64,000 nucleotides of DNA from Chitinophaga pinensis (GTDB lineage: Bacteria > Bacteroidota > Bacteroidia > NS11-12g > UBA955), in assembly GCA_945877575.1 (NCBI GenBank), contig CAMDUE010000002.1, forward strand, positions 1 through 64,000. The letters are read 5' to 3'. The position numbers were made by a program, and so were the translations under genes. The notes under the pieces were generated by a model. That model ran no database searches. It was not told the origin of the DNA and saw only the letters and a program-made list of their open reading frames with translations. Shown piece after piece: positions 5,554 through 21,374 of the stretch. Numbering within the stretch: position 1 is the stretch's first letter; each line of letters opens with the position of its first letter.

Positions 5554-6578
5554 TTATATATTGATTGTAATTCTTCTTTGTACTTAACTAACTCACTTCT
5601 AAATTTCTCTACCGTTGCTTCTAAACTCTCTTCACTTTGTCCACCCGCAGCGTTTTTATGCCCTCCTCCTGAAAAGTAGTTACCTGCAAACTCATTTGCA
5701 GCAAAGTTTCCTTTACTTCTGAAACTCATTTTTACCCGTTCGGTTCTGTCAATAATTAAAACGCTGAACACAATGCCTTTAATTCCCAAACCTAGATTTA
5801 CCAAACCTTCAGTATCACCTGTTACAACTTGAAATTCTTCTAATTCCTCTTTGTTTAAGTAGATCAGCGCAGTTCGGCAATCTTCTATGATTTCTAATTT
5901 CTGATACAAACAATATCCAAACAACCGGCTGCGAGTGGGTGAAAATACGTCGTAAATTCTTTCGTGTATAGCAATATGGTCAGCACCCAATTCCATCATA
6001 TCTGCAGCCACTCTATGTGTATGCGGTTTGGTATTGTTGTACTGGAAGTTTCCTGTATCAGTCATCAAGCCAGTAAATAAACAATTAACGCAATCTTTTG
6101 AAACCACATCCTTACCAAAATTCTTGATGCTCCATTCAAAAATCAACTCACAGGTGCTGCTGGCTTGAGGTGTCCAAAATGCATAGGAATAAAATTCTTC
6201 AGGCTCCAAATGATGATCTATCATTACGGTAGGTTTAGCCGAATTTTTAACCAATTCACCCAATTGATTGATGCGACTTAGCCTATTAAAATCTAAACAA
6301 AAAACTACGTCAGCTTCTCCCAATAAAGCAACAGCCCTGTTTGATTCTTCCTCGAAATTGACAACATGATCATTGCCAGGCAGCCAATTCAAATCTGCTG
6401 AATAATCAGTGGGAGTGACTACAGTTACTTGATCTGAAAAGTTTTTAAGCACATGCCATAATCCTAAAGTTGAACCCATAGCATCACCATCTGGTTTGTG
6501 ATGGGTTGTGATAAAAAATCGTTTGTATTCGCCTGATTTTATCTTATCTACTAAATCAGCGGTCGTGTCTAATCTCAT
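5550..6578 (-). CDS. nrnA: DHH/DHHA1 phosphoesterase, NrnA type (oligoribonuclease / pAp phosphatase)
   Basis: The 342-residue cytoplasmic protein probably degrades short oligonucleotides (nanoRNA) and 3'-phosphoadenosine 5'-phosphate. The DHH domain shows THHKPDGDAMGS at 25-36, LDFNRLSR near 95, the name-giving DHH at 121-123 and GLMTDTGNFQYNNT near 170, which together bind two Mn ions. The C-terminal DHHA1 domain contains GGGHKNAAGG from 304. It is the first gene of the leftward run. A TAnnTTTG element lies 8 bp before the ATG, and only 44 bp separate it from the divergent M16 gene. Confidence 0.92.
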   Translation of the reverse strand: MRLDTTADLVDKIKSGEYKRFFITTHHKPDGDAMGSTLGLWHVLKNFSDQVTVVTPTDYSADLNWLPGNDHVVNFEEESNRAVALLGEADVVFCLDFNRLSRINQLGELVKNSAKPTVMIDHHLEPEEFYSYAFWTPQASSTCELIFEWSIKNFGKDVVSKDCVNCLFTGLMTDTGNFQYNNTKPHTHRVAADMMELGADHIAIHERIYDVFSPTRSRLFGYCLYQKLEIIEDCRTALIYLNKEELEEFQVVTGDTEGLVNLGLGIKGIVFSVLIIDRTERVKMSFRSKGNFAANEFAGNYFSGGGHKNAAGGQSEESLEATVEKFRSELVKYKEELQSIYK

Positions 6579-6622: not shown

Positions 6623-7888
6623 ATGAGCAGTTCAGATTATCAGTTGTACACCTTAAACAACGGACTTAGGGTTGCTCACCTTAAAACGCCATCCACTTTA
6701 TTGGTCCATTGCGGCTTTGTAATCCTCGCTGGAAGCCGAAACGACGGCGATATTCCAGGGGTGGCTCATTTCTTAGAGCACATGTTTTTCAAAGGAACCC
6801 ATCGTAGAAAAACAATTCATGTACTCAATCACCTAGAAGTGGTTGGTGGCGAACTGAACGCTTTCACCACCAAGGAAATTACTACGTTGTATGCTACCAT
6901 TCAAAAAAAACACTTTGCGAGAGCAGTAGACATACTTTGCGATATTACTTTCAACTCAACTTTTCCTGAACAAGAGATCACCAAAGAAAAGATTGTCATC
7001 AAAGATGAAATCAACATGTACCTTGACACCCCCGAAGAAAATATCTACGACGAGTTTCAAGAGCTCATATTCGGCAATCACCCACTCGCGCACAATATTT
7101 TAGGTACGGCTGATTCTGTTGATTTAATCACAAAATCCTCCATTCAAAACTTCATCTCCGAAAACTACCATCCATCAAATATGGTATTTGTAGTTGTGGG
7201 AAATATACCCGCTGACCGCGTTCTCTCCACCCTCAACAAATTCGTACCTCCGTCACCTGACCCCCGACACCCATCAACCGACCCCCGACACCTGACCCCC
7301 GACCCCCGTCACCCAAAACCCAATTATCTGCCCTTCCGCAACAGAAAAGTTTCTGATTTTTCTCAGGCTTATGGGATTATGGGAATTCCTACGTTTGAAG
7401 AAACTCATGCAAAAAGATTTGAGTTATTGCTCTTAAATAATCTTTTGGGCGGACCAGGAATGAACAGCAGACTCAATTTGGCCATCAGAGAAAAATACGG
7501 ATACACTTACCACATTGAAAGCGGGTATCAAGCCTTCAGCGATAGCGGACTATTCCACTGCTATTTGAGTTGTGAAGAAAAATACTTGAATAAGTCTATC
7601 GATCTTATACAGAAAGAATTAAAAAAACTGAAAGATCAAAAGTTAGGAAAACTTCAACTAAGCCAGGCAAAAAATCAACTTACAGGCCAATTAGTTATTG
7701 CCAATGAAACCAGAAGTGGGCTCTTAGTTCACTTGGGAAAAGGAATCTTGAAATTCGGCAAAGCCCGAACCATGAAGGAAACCATACAATCCATCGAAAA
7801 AATTACCGCCGAAAACCTCCAGGATACCGCCAACGAAGTGTTTGATATTGATAAATTCAGCCACCTACACTACATCCCCGAAAAATGA
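6623..7888 (+). CDS. M16 family zinc peptidase (processing-peptidase-like, single half)
   Basis: This is a 421-residue insulinase/mitochondrial-processing-peptidase type protease without a signal peptide. The inverted zinc motif HxxEH is present as HFLEH at residues 49-53, followed by MFFKGT. Its partner acidic residue is likely in KDEINMYLDTPEEN near 130. A C-terminal peptidase M16C domain follows (GGPGMNSRLNLAIREKYGYTYHIESG). The ATG at 6623 is preferred to an upstream TTG. Oddity: residues about 209-232 are an insert of PDPRHP-like repeats coded by a heptamer-type DNA repeat (7250-7320), lying between the two domains. The 3' end overlaps the next gene by 4 bp. Confidence 0.9.
   Translation: MSSSDYQLYTLNNGLRVAHLKTPSTLLVHCGFVILAGSRNDGDIPGVAHFLEHMFFKGTHRRKTIHVLNHLEVVGGELNAFTTKEITTLYATIQKKHFARAVDILCDITFNSTFPEQEITKEKIVIKDEINMYLDTPEENIYDEFQELIFGNHPLAHNILGTADSVDLITKSSIQNFISENYHPSNMVFVVVGNIPADRVLSTLNKFVPPSPDPRHPSTDPRHLTPDPRHPKPNYLPFRNRKVSDFSQAYGIMGIPTFEETHAKRFELLLLNNLLGGPGMNSRLNLAIREKYGYTYHIESGYQAFSDSGLFHCYLSCEEKYLNKSIDLIQKELKKLKDQKLGKLQLSQAKNQLTGQLVIANETRSGLLVHLGKGILKFGKARTMKETIQSIEKITAENLQDTANEVFDIDKFSHLHYIPEK
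7250..7320. repeat. C-rich heptamer-type repeat inside the M16 peptidase gene
   Basis: Variants of GACCCCCGACACC recur about five times within 71 bp, in sharp contrast to the AT-rich surroundings. The array is read in frame as PDPRHP-like peptide units. Similar units (CCCGACA) appear in the intergenic array at 47217-47281. Confidence 0.85.
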
Positions 7889-15881: not shown

Positions 15882-15952
15882 ATCTCTAATTAGGTGTATG
15901 TAAATAAATGGGGGTAAATTATTATCTTCGAATTCAATGAATTTAATACATC

Positions 15953-16060
15953 TGTAATTGCAAAAAGAATAAAACGAAATAAAGTTTCGCATATCACTCC
16001 ATTATTGTATGGCTAAGGCTAAGCGAAGGTTTGTTTCGGGTATATACAAGTTATTCGTTA
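15953..16060. repeat. Imperfect palindrome 0 (degenerate cassette-type site)
   Basis: A 16-bp stem pairs 15975-15990 with 16023-16038 (13 Watson-Crick and two G-U pairs). To the right the sequence ends in GTTATTCGTT at 16050-16059, which is complementary in 9 of 10 bases to AACGCATAAC at 17137-17146, the left end of the next palindrome. The expected left box is not recognisable. Confidence 0.45.
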
Positions 16061-16187
16061 CCCAAGAAAACGACACCAGTGAGAATTTAAATCTTTTTTA
16101 TGTTGAACAGTTATTTATTAATGATTACTTATTGTTAGCTTTGTTAAATGATTACAAAAAATATACTAATTTTTTTATTAAATAATA

Positions 16188-17129
16188 ATGACTGATATAA
16201 TTCTATCAATTACTGCGGGGTTGGTTTTATTCCTATTTGCAGTAACCAATTTATCGGAAACACTAAAATCTGCACTTGGGGAAAATGCCAACATTTGGAT
16301 TAAAAAATATACATCTAATTCTTTTAGCAGTTTGTTAGTTGGTATTGTTGTTACCACTTTACTTGATTCTTCTTCTGCCGTAATCATTATTACAATTGTA
16401 TTGGTCAATTCGCAGATATTGACTTTTAGACAGGCAATGGGAATTGTTTTAGGGGCAAATATTGGAACAACAGTGAGCAGCCAGATAATTGCGATGGACG
16501 TAGGAAAGTATTCCCCAGTTTTTCTACTTATTGGATTTCTGCTTCTTTTTATTGCTAAGTCAGAAAAGCTAAGTAACATCGGTAAGACTATATTATATTT
16601 TGGAGTTTTATTTTTTGGGCTTTTTACTATGGAAAATGCTGTGGAGCCACTTAAGGATGAGGCGTTTTTTAATGAGTGGATGAAAAAAACAGAGAACCCC
16701 TTTGTTGGGGCAATTGTTGGAGCTATTGTAACTTTGGTTATACAGTCTTCATCAGCAACTGTAGGAATGGCGATTATTTTATCAAAAAAAGGGCTAATAA
16801 GTTTGACAGGTGGCATTGCAGTAATGTTGGGCGCAGAATTAGGGACGTGCAGTGACACTCTATTAGCAACCATTAGAGGAAGCAGACAAGCGCTCAAAAC
16901 GGGTTTGTTTCATGTAACATTTAATCTTCTATCAATAACATTAGGGCTTATATTGTTTTATCCTTTTGTTGAATTAGTGGAAATAATAAGTTCTGGAGCA
17001 TCAGTAGAAAGGACTGTTGCCAATGCTCACATGGTATTTAATATCTTTGGGGTGCTAATTTTTATTTGGACAATCCCATTTTTCGAAAAAGTATTAAATA
17101 AATTATTGCCAGATAAAATAGTTACATAA
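16188..17129 (+). CDS. Na/Pi cotransporter family membrane protein
   Basis: The 313-residue inner-membrane protein has two inverted repeats of the Na/Pi-cotransporter (PF02690) unit. Each has a Ser-rich signature, DSSSA at residues 60-64 and QSSSA at 186-190, followed by GANIGT (89-94) and GAELGT (215-220). About eight hydrophobic segments are visible. It probably couples sodium to phosphate or another anion. It lacks the C-terminal PhoU-like domain of longer homologues. It is the first gene of the island; palindromes flank it on both sides, so it stands as a single-gene unit. Confidence 0.88.
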   Translation: MTDIILSITAGLVLFLFAVTNLSETLKSALGENANIWIKKYTSNSFSSLLVGIVVTTLLDSSSAVIIITIVLVNSQILTFRQAMGIVLGANIGTTVSSQIIAMDVGKYSPVFLLIGFLLLFIAKSEKLSNIGKTILYFGVLFFGLFTMENAVEPLKDEAFFNEWMKKTENPFVGAIVGAIVTLVIQSSSATVGMAIILSKKGLISLTGGIAVMLGAELGTCSDTLLATIRGSRQALKTGLFHVTFNLLSITLGLILFYPFVELVEIISSGASVERTVANAHMVFNIFGVLIFIWTIPFFEKVLNKLLPDKIVT

Positions 17130-17136
17130 ATAAGAC

Positions 17137-17279
17137 AACGCATAACACGGGTTTGGCAAAAGTGGGGCTTTTGTACTAGGCTGAACATTTGTAGTTTCTA
17201 TGAACTTTGGTACAAAATTCGAACTTTGGTACTTTCTAAACCCCACCTTTGTCAAGCCCAAAAACGTTACCACCAATGC
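17137..17279. repeat. Imperfect palindrome 1 (cassette-type recombination site)
   Basis: The left arm GGGTTTGGCAAAAGTGGGG (17149-17167) matches the reverse complement of 17241-17259 in 16 of 19 bases, and weaker pairing continues inward. The left end is AACGCATAAC (17137-17146). The right end is AAAACGTTACCACC (17261-17274). These two ends do not pair with each other beyond GTTA, but each pairs with an end of palindrome 2. There is no gene here; an open frame running through the right arm is not a credible start for the hydrolase. Confidence 0.75.
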
Positions 17280-17292
17280 TAAAAAGATTTTG

Positions 17293-18399
17293 ATGAAAAT
17301 ATTTACATTAATAATTTGCTTTGGAATTATGCAGACAACATTTGGACAAATGACAACTGAAAAAGAGAAACCCCTTCAAACAATCCTTGACAAAACAGTT
17401 GACGGTAAAAAGGTGTTTGGGACATCTTTCGCTATTAAAAAAGATACATTGGTTTGGAACGGAGCATCGGGCAATTTGTTAATAGACCAACCTTATTTCA
17501 TTGCAAGCACAACCAAATTATTTACGACTGCAATAATTCTAAAACTGAGAGCGGAAAGCAAACTCAGTCTTGATGACAAAATCAGTAAATACATTGATAA
17601 ATCAATTTTATCAGGACTGCACATTTACAAAGGGAAAGATTATTCCCAGGAACTAACAATTAAACACCTACTCTCACATACATCAGGACTTCCCGACTAT
17701 TTTCAAGGCAAAGGAACAAGTGGAATAAGTTTGGAAAATGAAATAACAGAAGGCAATGACCAATTTTGGACTTTTGAACAAGCAATTGAAAGAACAAAAA
17801 AAATTATCCCTCTTTTTGCACCCGGGACAAAAGGGAAGGCAAACTATTCAGATGCAAATTTCCAACTTTTAGGAAAAATTATTGAGAACATAACACATAA
17901 ATCGTATGCCGAAAATTGTAGCGAATTTATCATCTATCCACTTGGTTTGACAAAGACCTATCTCTATCAAGACTCAACTGACAAAACACCAAAGACACTT
18001 TATTATAAGAGCAACGAACTGAATATACCCAAAGCAATGACATCTTTTGGGGCGGACGGTGGAATGGTTTCAACTTCCACCGATATGCTTATTTTTATTG
18101 AAGCATTTTTTACAGGCAAATTATTCCCATCAACTTACATTGACGAATTGCAAGAATGGAACAATATATTTTTTCCTATGAAATCTGGTATTGGCATTCA
18201 CTTATTCAAACTTCCTTGGCTTTTTAATCCAACAGGTGCAGTTCCATACTTTATAGGACACTCAGGACTTTCTGGAGCTTTAGCATATTACAGCCCGAAA
18301 GAGAATGTTTTTATAGTTGGAACAGTAAATCAGGTAGCACACCCTGACATTTCCTTTAAGACAATGATAAAATTAACTCAACAAATAATGAAAAAGTGA
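17293..18399 (+). CDS. Exported serine hydrolase, beta-lactamase / penicillin-binding-protein fold
   Basis: This is a 368-residue member of the class C beta-lactamase-like family. A Sec signal peptide (MKIFTLIICFGIMQTTFGQ) ends near residue 19. Catalytic motifs are SxxK at 72-75 (STTK), YxN-like YSD at 185-187 and the third-strand HSG at 323-325. The YSD variant replaces the usual Asn by Asp. Substrate could be a peptidoglycan peptide, a D-peptide or an ester; resistance is not implied. I chose the ATG at 17293 because it begins a proper signal peptide and lies just after palindrome 1. The unit 17266-18534 has complementary ends, like a gene cassette. Confidence 0.88.
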   Translation: MKIFTLIICFGIMQTTFGQMTTEKEKPLQTILDKTVDGKKVFGTSFAIKKDTLVWNGASGNLLIDQPYFIASTTKLFTTAIILKLRAESKLSLDDKISKYIDKSILSGLHIYKGKDYSQELTIKHLLSHTSGLPDYFQGKGTSGISLENEITEGNDQFWTFEQAIERTKKIIPLFAPGTKGKANYSDANFQLLGKIIENITHKSYAENCSEFIIYPLGLTKTYLYQDSTDKTPKTLYYKSNELNIPKAMTSFGADGGMVSTSTDMLIFIEAFFTGKLFPSTYIDELQEWNNIFFPMKSGIGIHLFKLPWLFNPTGAVPYFIGHSGLSGALAYYSPKENVFIVGTVNQVAHPDISFKTMIKLTQQIMKK

Positions 18400-18402
18400 G
18401 AA

Positions 18403-18548
18403 GCACTGGTGGTAACAGCACCTAAAAGAAATTGGCGGTTCAGTGGTTATATGAAGCTTTGTGCTTCGTATCAAGTGCAGTGCTGGCAGACAGTTTTCAT
18501 CTCCGAAATCGCCAACTTCTTTTTGCTGCAAAACGTTATGCGTTATGC
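18403..18548. repeat. Imperfect palindrome 2 (cassette-type recombination site)
   Basis: The left arm 18418-18437 matches the reverse complement of 18510-18529 in 17 of 20 bases. The left end GCACTGGTGGTAAC (18403-18416) is the inverse of GTTACCACCAATGC (17266-17279) with one mismatch. The right end AAAACGTTATGCG (18531-18543) is shared as AAAACGTTA with palindrome 1 and is complementary to AACGCATAAC (17137-17146). The region 18400-18594 holds no gene. Confidence 0.75.
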
Positions 18549-18594
18549 TTTAGAAGAAACCATTCACTTGAAACAGCGTAATTGAGAACGAGAA

Positions 18595-19161
18595 ATGATT
18601 GAAATAAAAAAATATTTCCAAAAAATGGTTCCTATTTCTGAAAAAGATTGGGAGTTCTTTTCATCTAAACTTATAAAACGTGAATTTGCCAAAAAGTCAA
18701 TAATTTTAAAAGTAGGTCAAAAAGAAAACTACTTATCTTTTATTGAAAAGGGAATTGTTAGAAAATGTATTCCTCAAGAATTTGATGATTTAACTTTTGA
18801 ATTTGCATTCGTCAATAATTTTGTGTCTGCATATGATATTTTCTTGACACAAGAACCATCAACTTACCAGTTAGAAACCTTAACAGACACTATACTCTGG
18901 AGTGTAACGTATAATGACTTAAAAGTAATTTATGACAAAACGGAAATTGGCAATACTATAGGAAGATTGGCAAGCGAAGACCTGTTTATGAAAAAATCTA
19001 AGCGAGAATTATCTTTATTAAACCAATCTGCCCAGGAACGTTATTTGAACTTATTTACAGAACAGCCTGAATTGTTGCAATTTATTCCATTAAAGTATAT
19101 AGCCTCTTATATTGGAGTAACGCCACAGGCACTAAGTAGAATAAGGAAACGTATTTCTTAA
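18595..19161 (+). CDS. Crp/Fnr-family transcriptional regulator
   Basis: This 188-residue protein has an N-terminal cyclic-nucleotide-binding-like beta barrel (EFAKKSIILKVGQKENYLSF, GIVRKCIP, TFEFAFVNNFVSAYDIFLT). A long helix and a short C-terminal helix-turn-helix follow (FIPLKYIASYIGVTPQALSR). This shape is typical of the many Crp-like regulators of Bacteroidota that lack conserved cAMP-contact residues. The ligand is unknown. It is followed after 65 bp by an exported NTF2-like protein, a plausible target or partner. Confidence 0.9.
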   Translation: MIEIKKYFQKMVPISEKDWEFFSSKLIKREFAKKSIILKVGQKENYLSFIEKGIVRKCIPQEFDDLTFEFAFVNNFVSAYDIFLTQEPSTYQLETLTDTILWSVTYNDLKVIYDKTEIGNTIGRLASEDLFMKKSKRELSLLNQSAQERYLNLFTEQPELLQFIPLKYIASYIGVTPQALSRIRKRIS

Positions 19162-19226
19162 CCCAAGTTCATTATTTGAATTTTAGCTTATTAGCAATTT
19201 TGCAACTCATCAATTAAAAAAGAGTA

Positions 19227-19754
19227 ATGGAAAAATTATTGTTATCGTTAGTGTTATTTATCGTTGCAGCAACTTCGTTAAATGCTCAAGATTTAAACCC
19301 TTATCATCATATTATAAAGGGAATTGTTAGGAAGAACTTCAAATCTATAACAGAGCATCGTTATGACGAGGTTTTAAAGGGAGTGTCTGATAAAGAATTA
19401 GAACATACTTTTGCAGGAGATAATTGCTTGGGTGGTACACGCCATGATAAAGAAAGCTTGAAAAGATGGTTTGAAAGAGTGGGAATTGTACTTCCAGACC
19501 TTAAATTTGAGGTAACAGATATTCAGGTTAAAGGAAATCCAGCCAAAACCCTTGTTATTGCAAGGTGGACAGCAACTTGTTATTTATTAAATGGTGAGCC
19601 CTACATAAATAAAGGAGTTCATTTTATTACATTGAAATGGGGAAAGGCTGTTAAATTTGATGTTTATGAAGATACTAAAACTGTATCTCATGGTTTAGAT
19701 GTTCAATTTGAATCAGGTATCAAGGAAGCTAAAGCTCCCAAAATTGAAAGCTAA
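19227..19754 (+). CDS. Exported NTF2-like (SnoaL-type) protein
   Basis: This 175-residue protein has a clear signal peptide (MEKLLLSLVLFIVAATSLNA, cleavage after about residue 20). The mature part has the NTF2-like cone fold pattern: HRYDEVLKGVSDKELEHTF, then KESLKRWFERVGIVLPDLKF, KTLVIARWTATCYL and GVHFITLKWGKAVKFDVYED. Related proteins are steroid isomerases, polyketide cyclases or ligand-binding proteins, and no catalytic residues are diagnostic here. It is the last gene of the island and stands downstream of the Crp/Fnr regulator. Confidence 0.8.
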   Translation: MEKLLLSLVLFIVAATSLNAQDLNPYHHIIKGIVRKNFKSITEHRYDEVLKGVSDKELEHTFAGDNCLGGTRHDKESLKRWFERVGIVLPDLKFEVTDIQVKGNPAKTLVIARWTATCYLLNGEPYINKGVHFITLKWGKAVKFDVYEDTKTVSHGLDVQFESGIKEAKAPKIES

Positions 19755-19931
19755 AAATTACATCATTATTGGGATTCTTCAGACCTTGAGACCAAATTAA
19801 AATTACAGAAAACAGTGTTCCCAAAAGGGTTGTAGATTAACCCGTCACATAGGGGTTATCTAACTCGAAATGTAAATGATTTTTTCCGCAGAATCTCTTT
19901 ATTTACGGGGGATATCGAAGGTCGTAAAACG

Positions 19932-19962
19932 AAAAAAGCCAATCATTTCTGATTGGCTTTTT
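19932..19962 (-). terminator. Terminator after tRNA-Glu/tRNA-fMet
   Basis: A 13-bp perfect stem (19933-19945 with 19950-19962) and a 4-nt loop end, read leftward, in six T residues directly beyond the tRNA-fMet 3' end. The T-rich right side makes it potentially bidirectional. Confidence 0.85.
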
Positions 19963-19967
19963 CTTTG

Positions 19968-20039
<72 letters not shown>

Positions 20040-20044
20040 ATTCG

Positions 20045-20116
20045 TAGCCCGTAGGGGAATCGAACCCCTCTTTCATCCGTGAAAGGGACGTGTCCTAACC
20101 GATAGACGAACGGGCC
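20045..20116 (-). tRNA. tRNA-Glu (anticodon TTC)
   Basis: The cloverleaf has acceptor GGCCCGT with ACGGGCT, anticodon loop CTTTCAC (anticodon TTC) and T-arm GGGG/CCCC around TTCGATT. It lies 5 bp upstream of tRNA-fMet on the same strand, so the two are likely co-transcribed. Confidence 0.95.
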
Positions 20117-20175
20117 GTGCTACTTGGGGCTGCAAAAATAAGAAGAATTTCTAACTTCCCAAATATATTTTTATT

Positions 20176-20541
20176 TTAATCGTGCTTTTTTACAATTCCA
20201 TCTCCCCACAGTTCCTCTAAAGCATAAAAATCACGATTGGGCTTTGAGAAAATATGTACCACCACATTGTAATAATCTAACAATACCCATTCTGCTACTT
20301 CCGAACCTTCCCTGTGCGTTGGACGCTCATTCAACACCTTTCGCATCTCATCTTCCACGCTATCTGCTAAAGCATCAATTTGTCTATTCGAAGAACCATG
20401 TGCAATTACAAAAAAATCAGTAAATGCTGATCCTAGTCCTCTTAAATCTATGGTAACTATGTCTAACCCTTTTTTCTCTTGTAATCCTTGAACTGCCACC
20501 GCCGCCATCGCTTCTGAATCTACCGTTTTTATTTTGCTCAT
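20176..20541 (-). CDS. rsfS: Ribosomal silencing factor RsfS
   Basis: The 121-residue protein binds L14 (uL14) and prevents subunit joining under nutrient limitation. The core pattern is intact: KKGLDIVTIDLRG near residue 23, FTDFFVIAHGSSNRQIDALADSV near 40, and WVLLDYYNVVVHIFS near 85, then FYALEELWGD. Length is normal. Its start is only 11 bp from the first possible start of the divergent birA. Confidence 0.95.
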   Translation of the reverse strand: MSKIKTVDSEAMAAVAVQGLQEKKGLDIVTIDLRGLGSAFTDFFVIAHGSSNRQIDALADSVEDEMRKVLNERPTHREGSEVAEWVLLDYYNVVVHIFSKPNRDFYALEELWGDGIVKKHD

Positions 20542-20552
20542 TTGCTGTTATT

Positions 20553-21374
20553 TTGTGCAAAATAAACACAAACCCATTGGAAGTCCTCGAAAAATTATAT
20601 TATGCCCCAAGAATAGAGTCTACTCAGACCCAATTAATTCAGTTTTTCCAAAAAGGGATTACCAACAATCACTACGGCATTTACTCCTTCAATCAAACCA
20701 AAGGAAAAGGCCAAGGCAACAATTCTTGGGAAATGAACCCCGATGACGGATTGGCTATTTCCTTGGGATTTAAAATCAGTTCAAAACACGAAACCTTCGA
20801 CTGGGTGGCCGTTAACAAGCATATCACAACCCTCGTTTGCACTTACCTGCAACGTCATTGCGAAGAGCCACTGTTCATAAAATGGCCCAACGATTTACTT
20901 TGTAAAGACAAAAAACTCGCTGGTATACTTATACAAGTTCTACCCTTCCAAGAAGCCCCTGAAATGATTTCCAATAAAATCAACAGCGAAAACCACGATA
21001 AATTATTTATTCTAGGAATTGGCATTAACATCAATCCTACAGAAACCGAAAGCTCAGAAAACACCGAAAAGAGAATTTCCCTGAATCAAATTAATCAATT
21101 CAAAATTGAAGATCTTCATCAATTTGCCCATTCTTTGGCTGAATTTCTCTTTGAACGCGCATTAAACATCCCCCGAGAAACTGAAAAAATACATCTTTAC
21201 TTTGAACAATGCCTTTGGCGTTTTTCAGAGCTCGTAAACGTTCAAATATCCACTCCCAACGCCAAAATTCATGAAGCAATATTTAAAGGGGTAGACCAAA
21301 ATGGAAGAGCTATTCTAGAGATAGACGGTGAAATCCTGGCGTTTCAACATGGCGATGCACGAATATTATACTAA
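20553..21374 (+). CDS. birA: Biotin-protein ligase (monofunctional BirA)
   Basis: The 273-residue enzyme attaches biotin to carboxylase carrier proteins. It lacks the N-terminal DNA-binding domain of E. coli BirA. Seen: substrate loop IESTQTQLIQFF near residue 22, KGKGQGNNSWEMNPDDGLAIS near 50 (a variant of GRGRRGRxWxSP), the lysine site FIKWPNDLLCKDKKLAGIL near 110 and ILGIGININPT near 153. No in-frame ATG exists early enough, so TTG at 20553 or TTG at 20577 must initiate. It is divergent from rsfS with almost no space between them. The substrate biotin carboxyl carrier is not in the window, although accA is. Confidence 0.9.
   Translation: MCKINTNPLEVLEKLYYAPRIESTQTQLIQFFQKGITNNHYGIYSFNQTKGKGQGNNSWEMNPDDGLAISLGFKISSKHETFDWVAVNKHITTLVCTYLQRHCEEPLFIKWPNDLLCKDKKLAGILIQVLPFQEAPEMISNKINSENHDKLFILGIGININPTETESSENTEKRISLNQINQFKIEDLHQFAHSLAEFLFERALNIPRETEKIHLYFEQCLWRFSELVNVQISTPNAKIHEAIFKGVDQNGRAILEIDGEILAFQHGDARILY

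Follow-up and report, generated by a model that had tools for sequence, protein, structure and literature searches.

Two imperfect palindromes on either side of a serine hydrolase gene in the window (the whole 64,000-nucleotide stretch of DNA analysed here) are very probably the sites at which cassettes recombine in a gene-capture system resembling integrons, served by a recombinase of the XerA/IntI superfamily with its crossover at the GTT after AAAAC. Comparison between genomes brings out conserved sites, a box pairing specific to each cassette, a linkage with an integrase and attI, and a cassette difference between two species; that the recombinase is the enzyme and circles are its substrate, we infer.

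Palindromic sites and cassettes in the window

We propose the following reading of the locus.

15945–16052, plus strand: attI-like site with crossover GTT at 16050–16052 (identity to the post-integrase stretch of genome G025, to congener G006 and to a second copy in the window's own genome)
16051–17266, plus strand: putative cassette 1, Na/Pi cotransporter (start-box pairing; gene and site on the same strand)
16188–17129, plus strand: Na/Pi cotransporter gene, 313 aa (PF02690, E 3e-54; NF037997)
17137–17279, plus strand: putative recombination site 1, an attC-like palindrome whose outer boxes are hybrid (sequence, folding, scanner; covariance model R1, 92 bits)
17267–18535, plus strand: putative cassette 2, 1269 nt, the originally predicted mobile unit of serine hydrolase and its own site (end-box pairing; absence in G006)
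17293–18399, plus strand: beta-lactamase-fold serine hydrolase gene, 368 aa (PF00144, E 8e-43)
18403–18548, plus strand: putative recombination site 2, an attC-like palindrome whose outer boxes are hybrid (sequence, folding, scanner; covariance model R1, 106 bits)
18536–19763, plus strand: shared distal segment with a Crp-like regulator (18595–19161) and a SnoaL-like protein (19227–19754) (identity to G006)

The original prediction described two palindromes whose outer boxes pair across the sites and which share AAAACGTTA; palindromes, coordinates, pairing and shared motif are all present in the sequence. AACGCATAAC (17137–17146) is the exact reverse complement (10/10) of GTTATGCGTT (18535–18544), and GTTACCACCAATGC (17266–17279) is complementary to GCACTGGTGGTAAC (18403–18416) in 13 of 14 positions, a repeat search of the window giving 93% over 15 nt for the inverted repeat at these last two boxes. 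AAAACGTTA occurs exactly twice, once per predicted crossover, two copies alone not being rare (at least two in 29 of 100 shuffled windows). As they stand in the window, both sites fold mostly by pairing of the inner arms. Computed for the recombined state, the empty site and the circle site each fold over their whole length, and the predicted DNA energies improve from about −18 to −25 and from about −25 to −30 kcal/mol. Covariance model R1, built from 69 sites with these two included, gives them E-values of 2e-18 and 2e-15.

It had also been proposed that a unit inserted into an older site. The locus instead appears to be a platform that has an attI of its own at 16050 and holds two cassettes or more, lacking an integrase: attI is followed by the Na/Pi cassette, the serine hydrolase cassette and then the shared distal segment. 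The attI stretch is 81.7% identical to the stretch directly 3′ of the integrase stop codon in G025 (locus L050), which ends in the same GTATATAC, A or G, and A before the GTT. Identity is 89.8% in G006 and 89.5% at the second place in the window's own genome, and it stops at the GTT. The start box of cassette 1, GTTATTCGTT at 16050, pairs with the left box of site 1 at 9 of 10 positions, and the end boxes of cassette 2 pair at 9 of 9 scored positions.

The serine hydrolase gene is present in only 8 of 97 genomes, its own included. No hydrolase relative (47–76% identity) adjoining a site was found in the relatives, so transfer of exactly cassette 2 was not seen; nor was any Na/Pi homologue adjoining a site found there. 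Downstream of the crossover, the distal segment and G006 share 97.7% identity, which falls to about 78% in the next genes (19764–20600). It may have been transferred recently and is likely a third cassette; no recombination site was found at its distal end.

No integrase lies in the window, as noted from the outset, and no relic of one was found upstream of the attI (best tblastn E 0.046). Model A1 detects no array integrase in the window's genome (best match 182 bits, a Xer) or in G006. The search for IntI-like or other tyrosine recombinases, originally suggested for the whole genome, thus came out empty for the array integrase there and positive in relatives. The platform might be served in trans or be a relic, or the gene may be missing from the assemblies of both genomes.

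Cassette differences at the crossovers

The left flank in G006 matches the window at 90% identity up to TATATACAA before the GTT, and the right flank at 97.7% from the TTATGCG that follows GCTGCAAAACG. Between the same two crossovers cassette 2 is missing, and G006 holds one different cassette with its own paired ends and a gene that we call DinB-like from reading its sequence, with no family search behind the name. This base-exact replacement with both flanks kept points to precise gain or loss of cassettes at the crossover, and so does the second attI copy on contig C1, which carries another cassette. An empty site with one intact palindrome, as envisaged originally, was not found; the exchanged cassette of G006 is what the congener offers in its place.

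The second attI-like copy (L206, G000:C1:370001–381908, minus strand) is 89.5% identical over 353 nt, with its crossover at about 8572, and ends at the same GTT. One cassette comes after it, with an ORF of 253 aa and a site at 7631–7753; the start box of this cassette pairs with its own site at 9 of 10 positions. On contig C15 (L205), a site at 6015–6138 closes an orphan cassette with its start box, ATAATCGA followed by GTTAGGTGC, 781 nt upstream (8/10). Model R1 counts six or seven sites in this genome. Weaker site-like matches occur on contig C17 at 35301, 36448 and 45267 (L176–L178, L044). The genome also encodes two 417-aa arm-domain integrases, one on C27 and one on C17, the contig with the weaker matches, where there is possibly a mobile island.

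A family of sites across Bacteroidota

With site 2 as query, BLASTN detects related cores in 45 of 97 genomes. Most of the long alignments start at TAAC and end near CGTTA, so that conservation covers the core and leaves out the outer boxes. A scanner for the pattern AAC, stem, loop, stem, CGTT picked out 32 sites from relatives (370 kb of DNA) as well as the window's two, and none from shuffled DNA; since it required CGTT and AAC, the conservation of those bases is partly built in. With model R1, sites appear in 68 of the 97 relatives. The suggestion that other Bacteroidota be searched for such palindromes proved fruitful, with sites in 123 of 247 genomes drawn evenly across the phylum and in none of 20 control genomes reached via non-Bacteroidota loci. 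No Rfam family matches the sites.

The arrays of relatives consist of cassettes ending in palindromic sites, their genes in one orientation. Across 67 adjacent pairs of sites, the right box of one site pairs with the left box of its successor at a mean of 6.25 of 9 positions, 41 pairs reaching at least 7. Within-site comparison gives a mean of 3.04 and random pairing 2.97 (1.6% at least 7). Each cassette therefore carries its own matched pair of ends. The 26 pairs scoring below 7 probably reflect missed intermediate sites or decay. In the opposite comparison, of the left box with the right box of the next site, the mean is 3.2 and 3 of 67 pairs score high, which equals random. The pairing taken originally as the trace of an older site is thus not a general rule, and in the window it most likely reflects a common box type, because GTTATGC is the commonest right box.

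Boxes at cassette ends pair over about 9 bp, are never Watson-Crick at position 11, and then pair over about 4 bp. The 41 chained cassettes have a median length of 889 nt, and in all but one (40/41) the longest ORF lies on the strand of the site. The integron consensus GTTRRRY fits 10 of 126 right boxes and 8 of 130 left boxes, both sides in 2 sites; the misfit noted for the window's boxes is confirmed. Together with G006, these arrays bear out the idea of integron-like cassette insertion with a crossover at GTT after AAAAC.

Linkage to an integrase and attI

In relatives, a XerA/IntI-like tyrosine recombinase of 340–400 aa is encoded directly upstream of arrays on the same strand. Among 103 sites in integrase loci, 85 lie downstream on the same strand, 3 upstream on the same strand and 15 on the opposite one. 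Genomes with the integrase hold a median of 7.5 sites against 1 in those without (p=6e-9), and at least 7 sites occur in 19 of 34 against 2 of 63.

If the model is right, the complement of the first site's left box should open the first cassette somewhere between the integrase and that site. Such a box, pairing at 8 or more of 10 positions within 500 nt of the integrase stop, is present in 28 of 36 loci; with the boxes of other loci, the control gives 21 of 1260. The bases preceding the GTT there resemble ATATAAACNA, and inverted repeats lie just upstream in several loci. A start box near the integrase stop together with conserved preceding bases would mark attI, placed at the location where it was expected and sought, with the control above. 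Its sequence is kept in the window, in the second own-genome copy, in G006 and in G025, where it lies 3′ of the integrase stop. Relatives thus have an integrase beside the attI for cassette entry, and the window platform has the attI without one.

Identity of the integrase

The best models for the integrase are NF040815 (XerA, 'tyrosine recombinase/integron integrase') and TIGR02249 (IntI). NF040815 scores 199–245 bits, some members exceeding its cut-off of 220; that of TIGR02249 is passed in none of the 97 genomes. A structure search with the whole predicted model returns mostly XerA, IntI4, XerH and other integrases, the best PDB entries being XerA 5hxy and 4a8e, and the IntI4 alignment splits around the IntI-specific insert. 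The spacing from KG..R to H.LRH is 62–71 aa in almost every array integrase, the exceptions being a few fragmentary or atypical sequences that gave no value, against 106–107 aa in IntI1 and Vibrio IntI. This short spacing means that the IntI-specific insert (I2) is missing. In a tree with weak deep forks, IntI groups with archaeal and Patescibacteria relatives, apart from the array integrases. The array integrase was also considered as the single housekeeping Xer acting at dif; we rejected this, as it occurs in addition to Xer genes and scores higher with model A1 (276–560 bits against about 140–210 for Xer).

An extra N-terminal domain of about 60 aa is predicted to fold as beta-beta-alpha-beta-beta-alpha. 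Its Foldseek matches are weak, the best being the SMARCAL1 HARP domain 4o66 (E 0.78, TM 0.39), with the N-terminal half of XPB also listed, and the Pfam scan gives it no HARP model; the modelled likeness to HARP is only a lead. The domain, found in L057:1095–1292 (minus strand) and homologues, carries a KWSxTxKxW motif.

Several further integrases deserve mention. Four with the N-terminal region (L121, L122, L134, L138) come from records labelled Undinarchaeales, Firmicutes, Spirochaetota and Saccharibacillus; model R1 finds no sites in their genomes, and they may use another site type. The Chryseobacterium plasmids NZ_CP041688.1 and NZ_CP094530.1 encode integrases with 67–69% DNA identity to part of the F. 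aciduliphilum array integrase, and mobile forms may thus exist. Array-type integrases in L104, L105, L106, L145, L147, L152 and L154 have much longer N-terminal parts, in ORFs of 539–718 aa.

Proposed mechanism and its alternatives

In our model, the XerA/IntI-superfamily recombinase would place a circular cassette into attI or into the site of another cassette, with the crossover at the GTT after the AAAAC spacer. A cassette would run from a TT-box through the gene and a complementary box to a palindrome core whose last base is G. The two box halves of a free circle would flank the palindrome, pair and complete a long hairpin; in an array, each site would carry one box from each neighbour. 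Cassette sites of integrons fold as single strands (PMC2727003, PMC7790495). By analogy, we infer that in a circular cassette the site's bottom strand would fold and recombine, single-stranded, with attI.

The same cassettes could instead recombine at double-stranded sites, as for ordinary Xer and phage integrases, the palindrome being a protein-binding dyad or a terminator. We hold this to be unlikely, while giving it real weight: the integrase lacks the I2 helix by which IntI grips folded attC (PMC7790495), and the outer boxes of hybrid array sites pair poorly, so that the R duplex would be weak if folded. Yet a cassette-specific complementarity of about 9 bp is hard to account for unless the ends pair. 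Mismatches that wobble only on the bottom strand (T.G) outnumber top-strand wobbles 227:49, the stem has a near-invariant A.C, and box position 11 is C/A in 31 of 41 cases; the asymmetry and the position that is never Watson-Crick suggest strand-specific folding. Moreover, attI and cassette sites have different bases next to the crossover (ATACAA and AAAAC, respectively), and these bases are not swapped, unlike in a double-strand exchange with homologous overlap.

A canonical integron remnant (CALIN) with IntI and attC would share the array logic, the gene orientation, the GTT crossover and the attI, and TIGR02249 is among the best models of the integrase. We regard it as highly improbable, given the unpassed IntI cut-off, the absent insert, the misfit to GTTRRRY, and an attI 3′ of an integrase that reads toward the array. 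In the strict sense, this reading is refuted. Slighter still is the chance that these are dispersed repeats of another kind (REP-like elements, transposon ends or terminators), with box pairing left by insertion of an inverted-end transposon. The cores are indeed dispersed and alike within genomes, and the missing Rfam family excludes little. However, the sites are linked to one group of integrases and to attI, each unit has a private box sequence, unlike transposon ends, replacement at the GTT is base-exact with both flanks kept, and the window's units contain no transposase.

Significance and comparison with known systems

An earlier survey of integrons took the additional domain or IntI patch as its criterion for integrases (PMC2426708); the domain has been described as essential (PMC8138268). 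The I2 helix is regarded as the basis of attC processing and the innovation enabling recombination of folded single-strand sites; a 'lack of intermediates' is said to stand in the way of reconstructing how it arose (PMC7790495). In Bacteroidetes, IntegronFinder 2.0 reported In0 elements and one complete integron, in Salinibacter ruber (PMC9024848). The original prediction knew of no assigned mechanism for such palindromes; no description of the sites or the system was found in the open-access literature, preprints and most subscription papers lying outside the search.

We lean, with some reserve, towards a second, separate class of integron in about half of Bacteroidota. Its XerA-like integrase would lack I2, with the HARP-like N-terminal domain as a possible substitute, and would recombine folded single-stranded sites recognised by their structure; each cassette would bring a self-complementary box of its own in place of a common consensus. 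A phylum-wide system of this kind would alter what is known of the range of gene capture in a major phylum of gut, soil and marine habitats. It would also hold a large unread pool of cassettes and offer a natural test of how single-strand recombination arose.

As in class 1 integrons and the Vibrio superintegron, cassettes mostly carry a single gene and end in an imperfect palindromic site with the R''-L''-L'-R' layout. The GTT crossover, the attI beside a tyrosine recombinase gene and the cassette genes on one strand are likewise shared, and bottom-strand folding may be a further likeness. Unlike in integrons, the integrase has no I2 insert, has an extra N-terminal domain and reads in the direction of the array, attI lying at its 3′ end. 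A box consists of GTTR and a variable part private to the cassette (about 9 bp, the non-Watson-Crick position 11, about 4 bp), and sites have conserved A.C and T.G mismatches in gapless stems without obvious extrahelical bases.

XerA and XerD provide the closest sequence models and folds; in contrast to XerA and to XerC/D, which resolve chromosome dimers at dif, the array integrase is encoded at cassette arrays and has the additional N-terminal domain. The window platform and G006 resemble CALIN or orphan cassettes (attC clusters without integrase) in having cassettes and no integrase gene, whereas, unlike CALIN, the window's genome keeps attI in two copies. On these comparisons, the system appears integron-like in its working and departs from IntI/attC in two defining features, the I2 insert and the GTTRRRY consensus.
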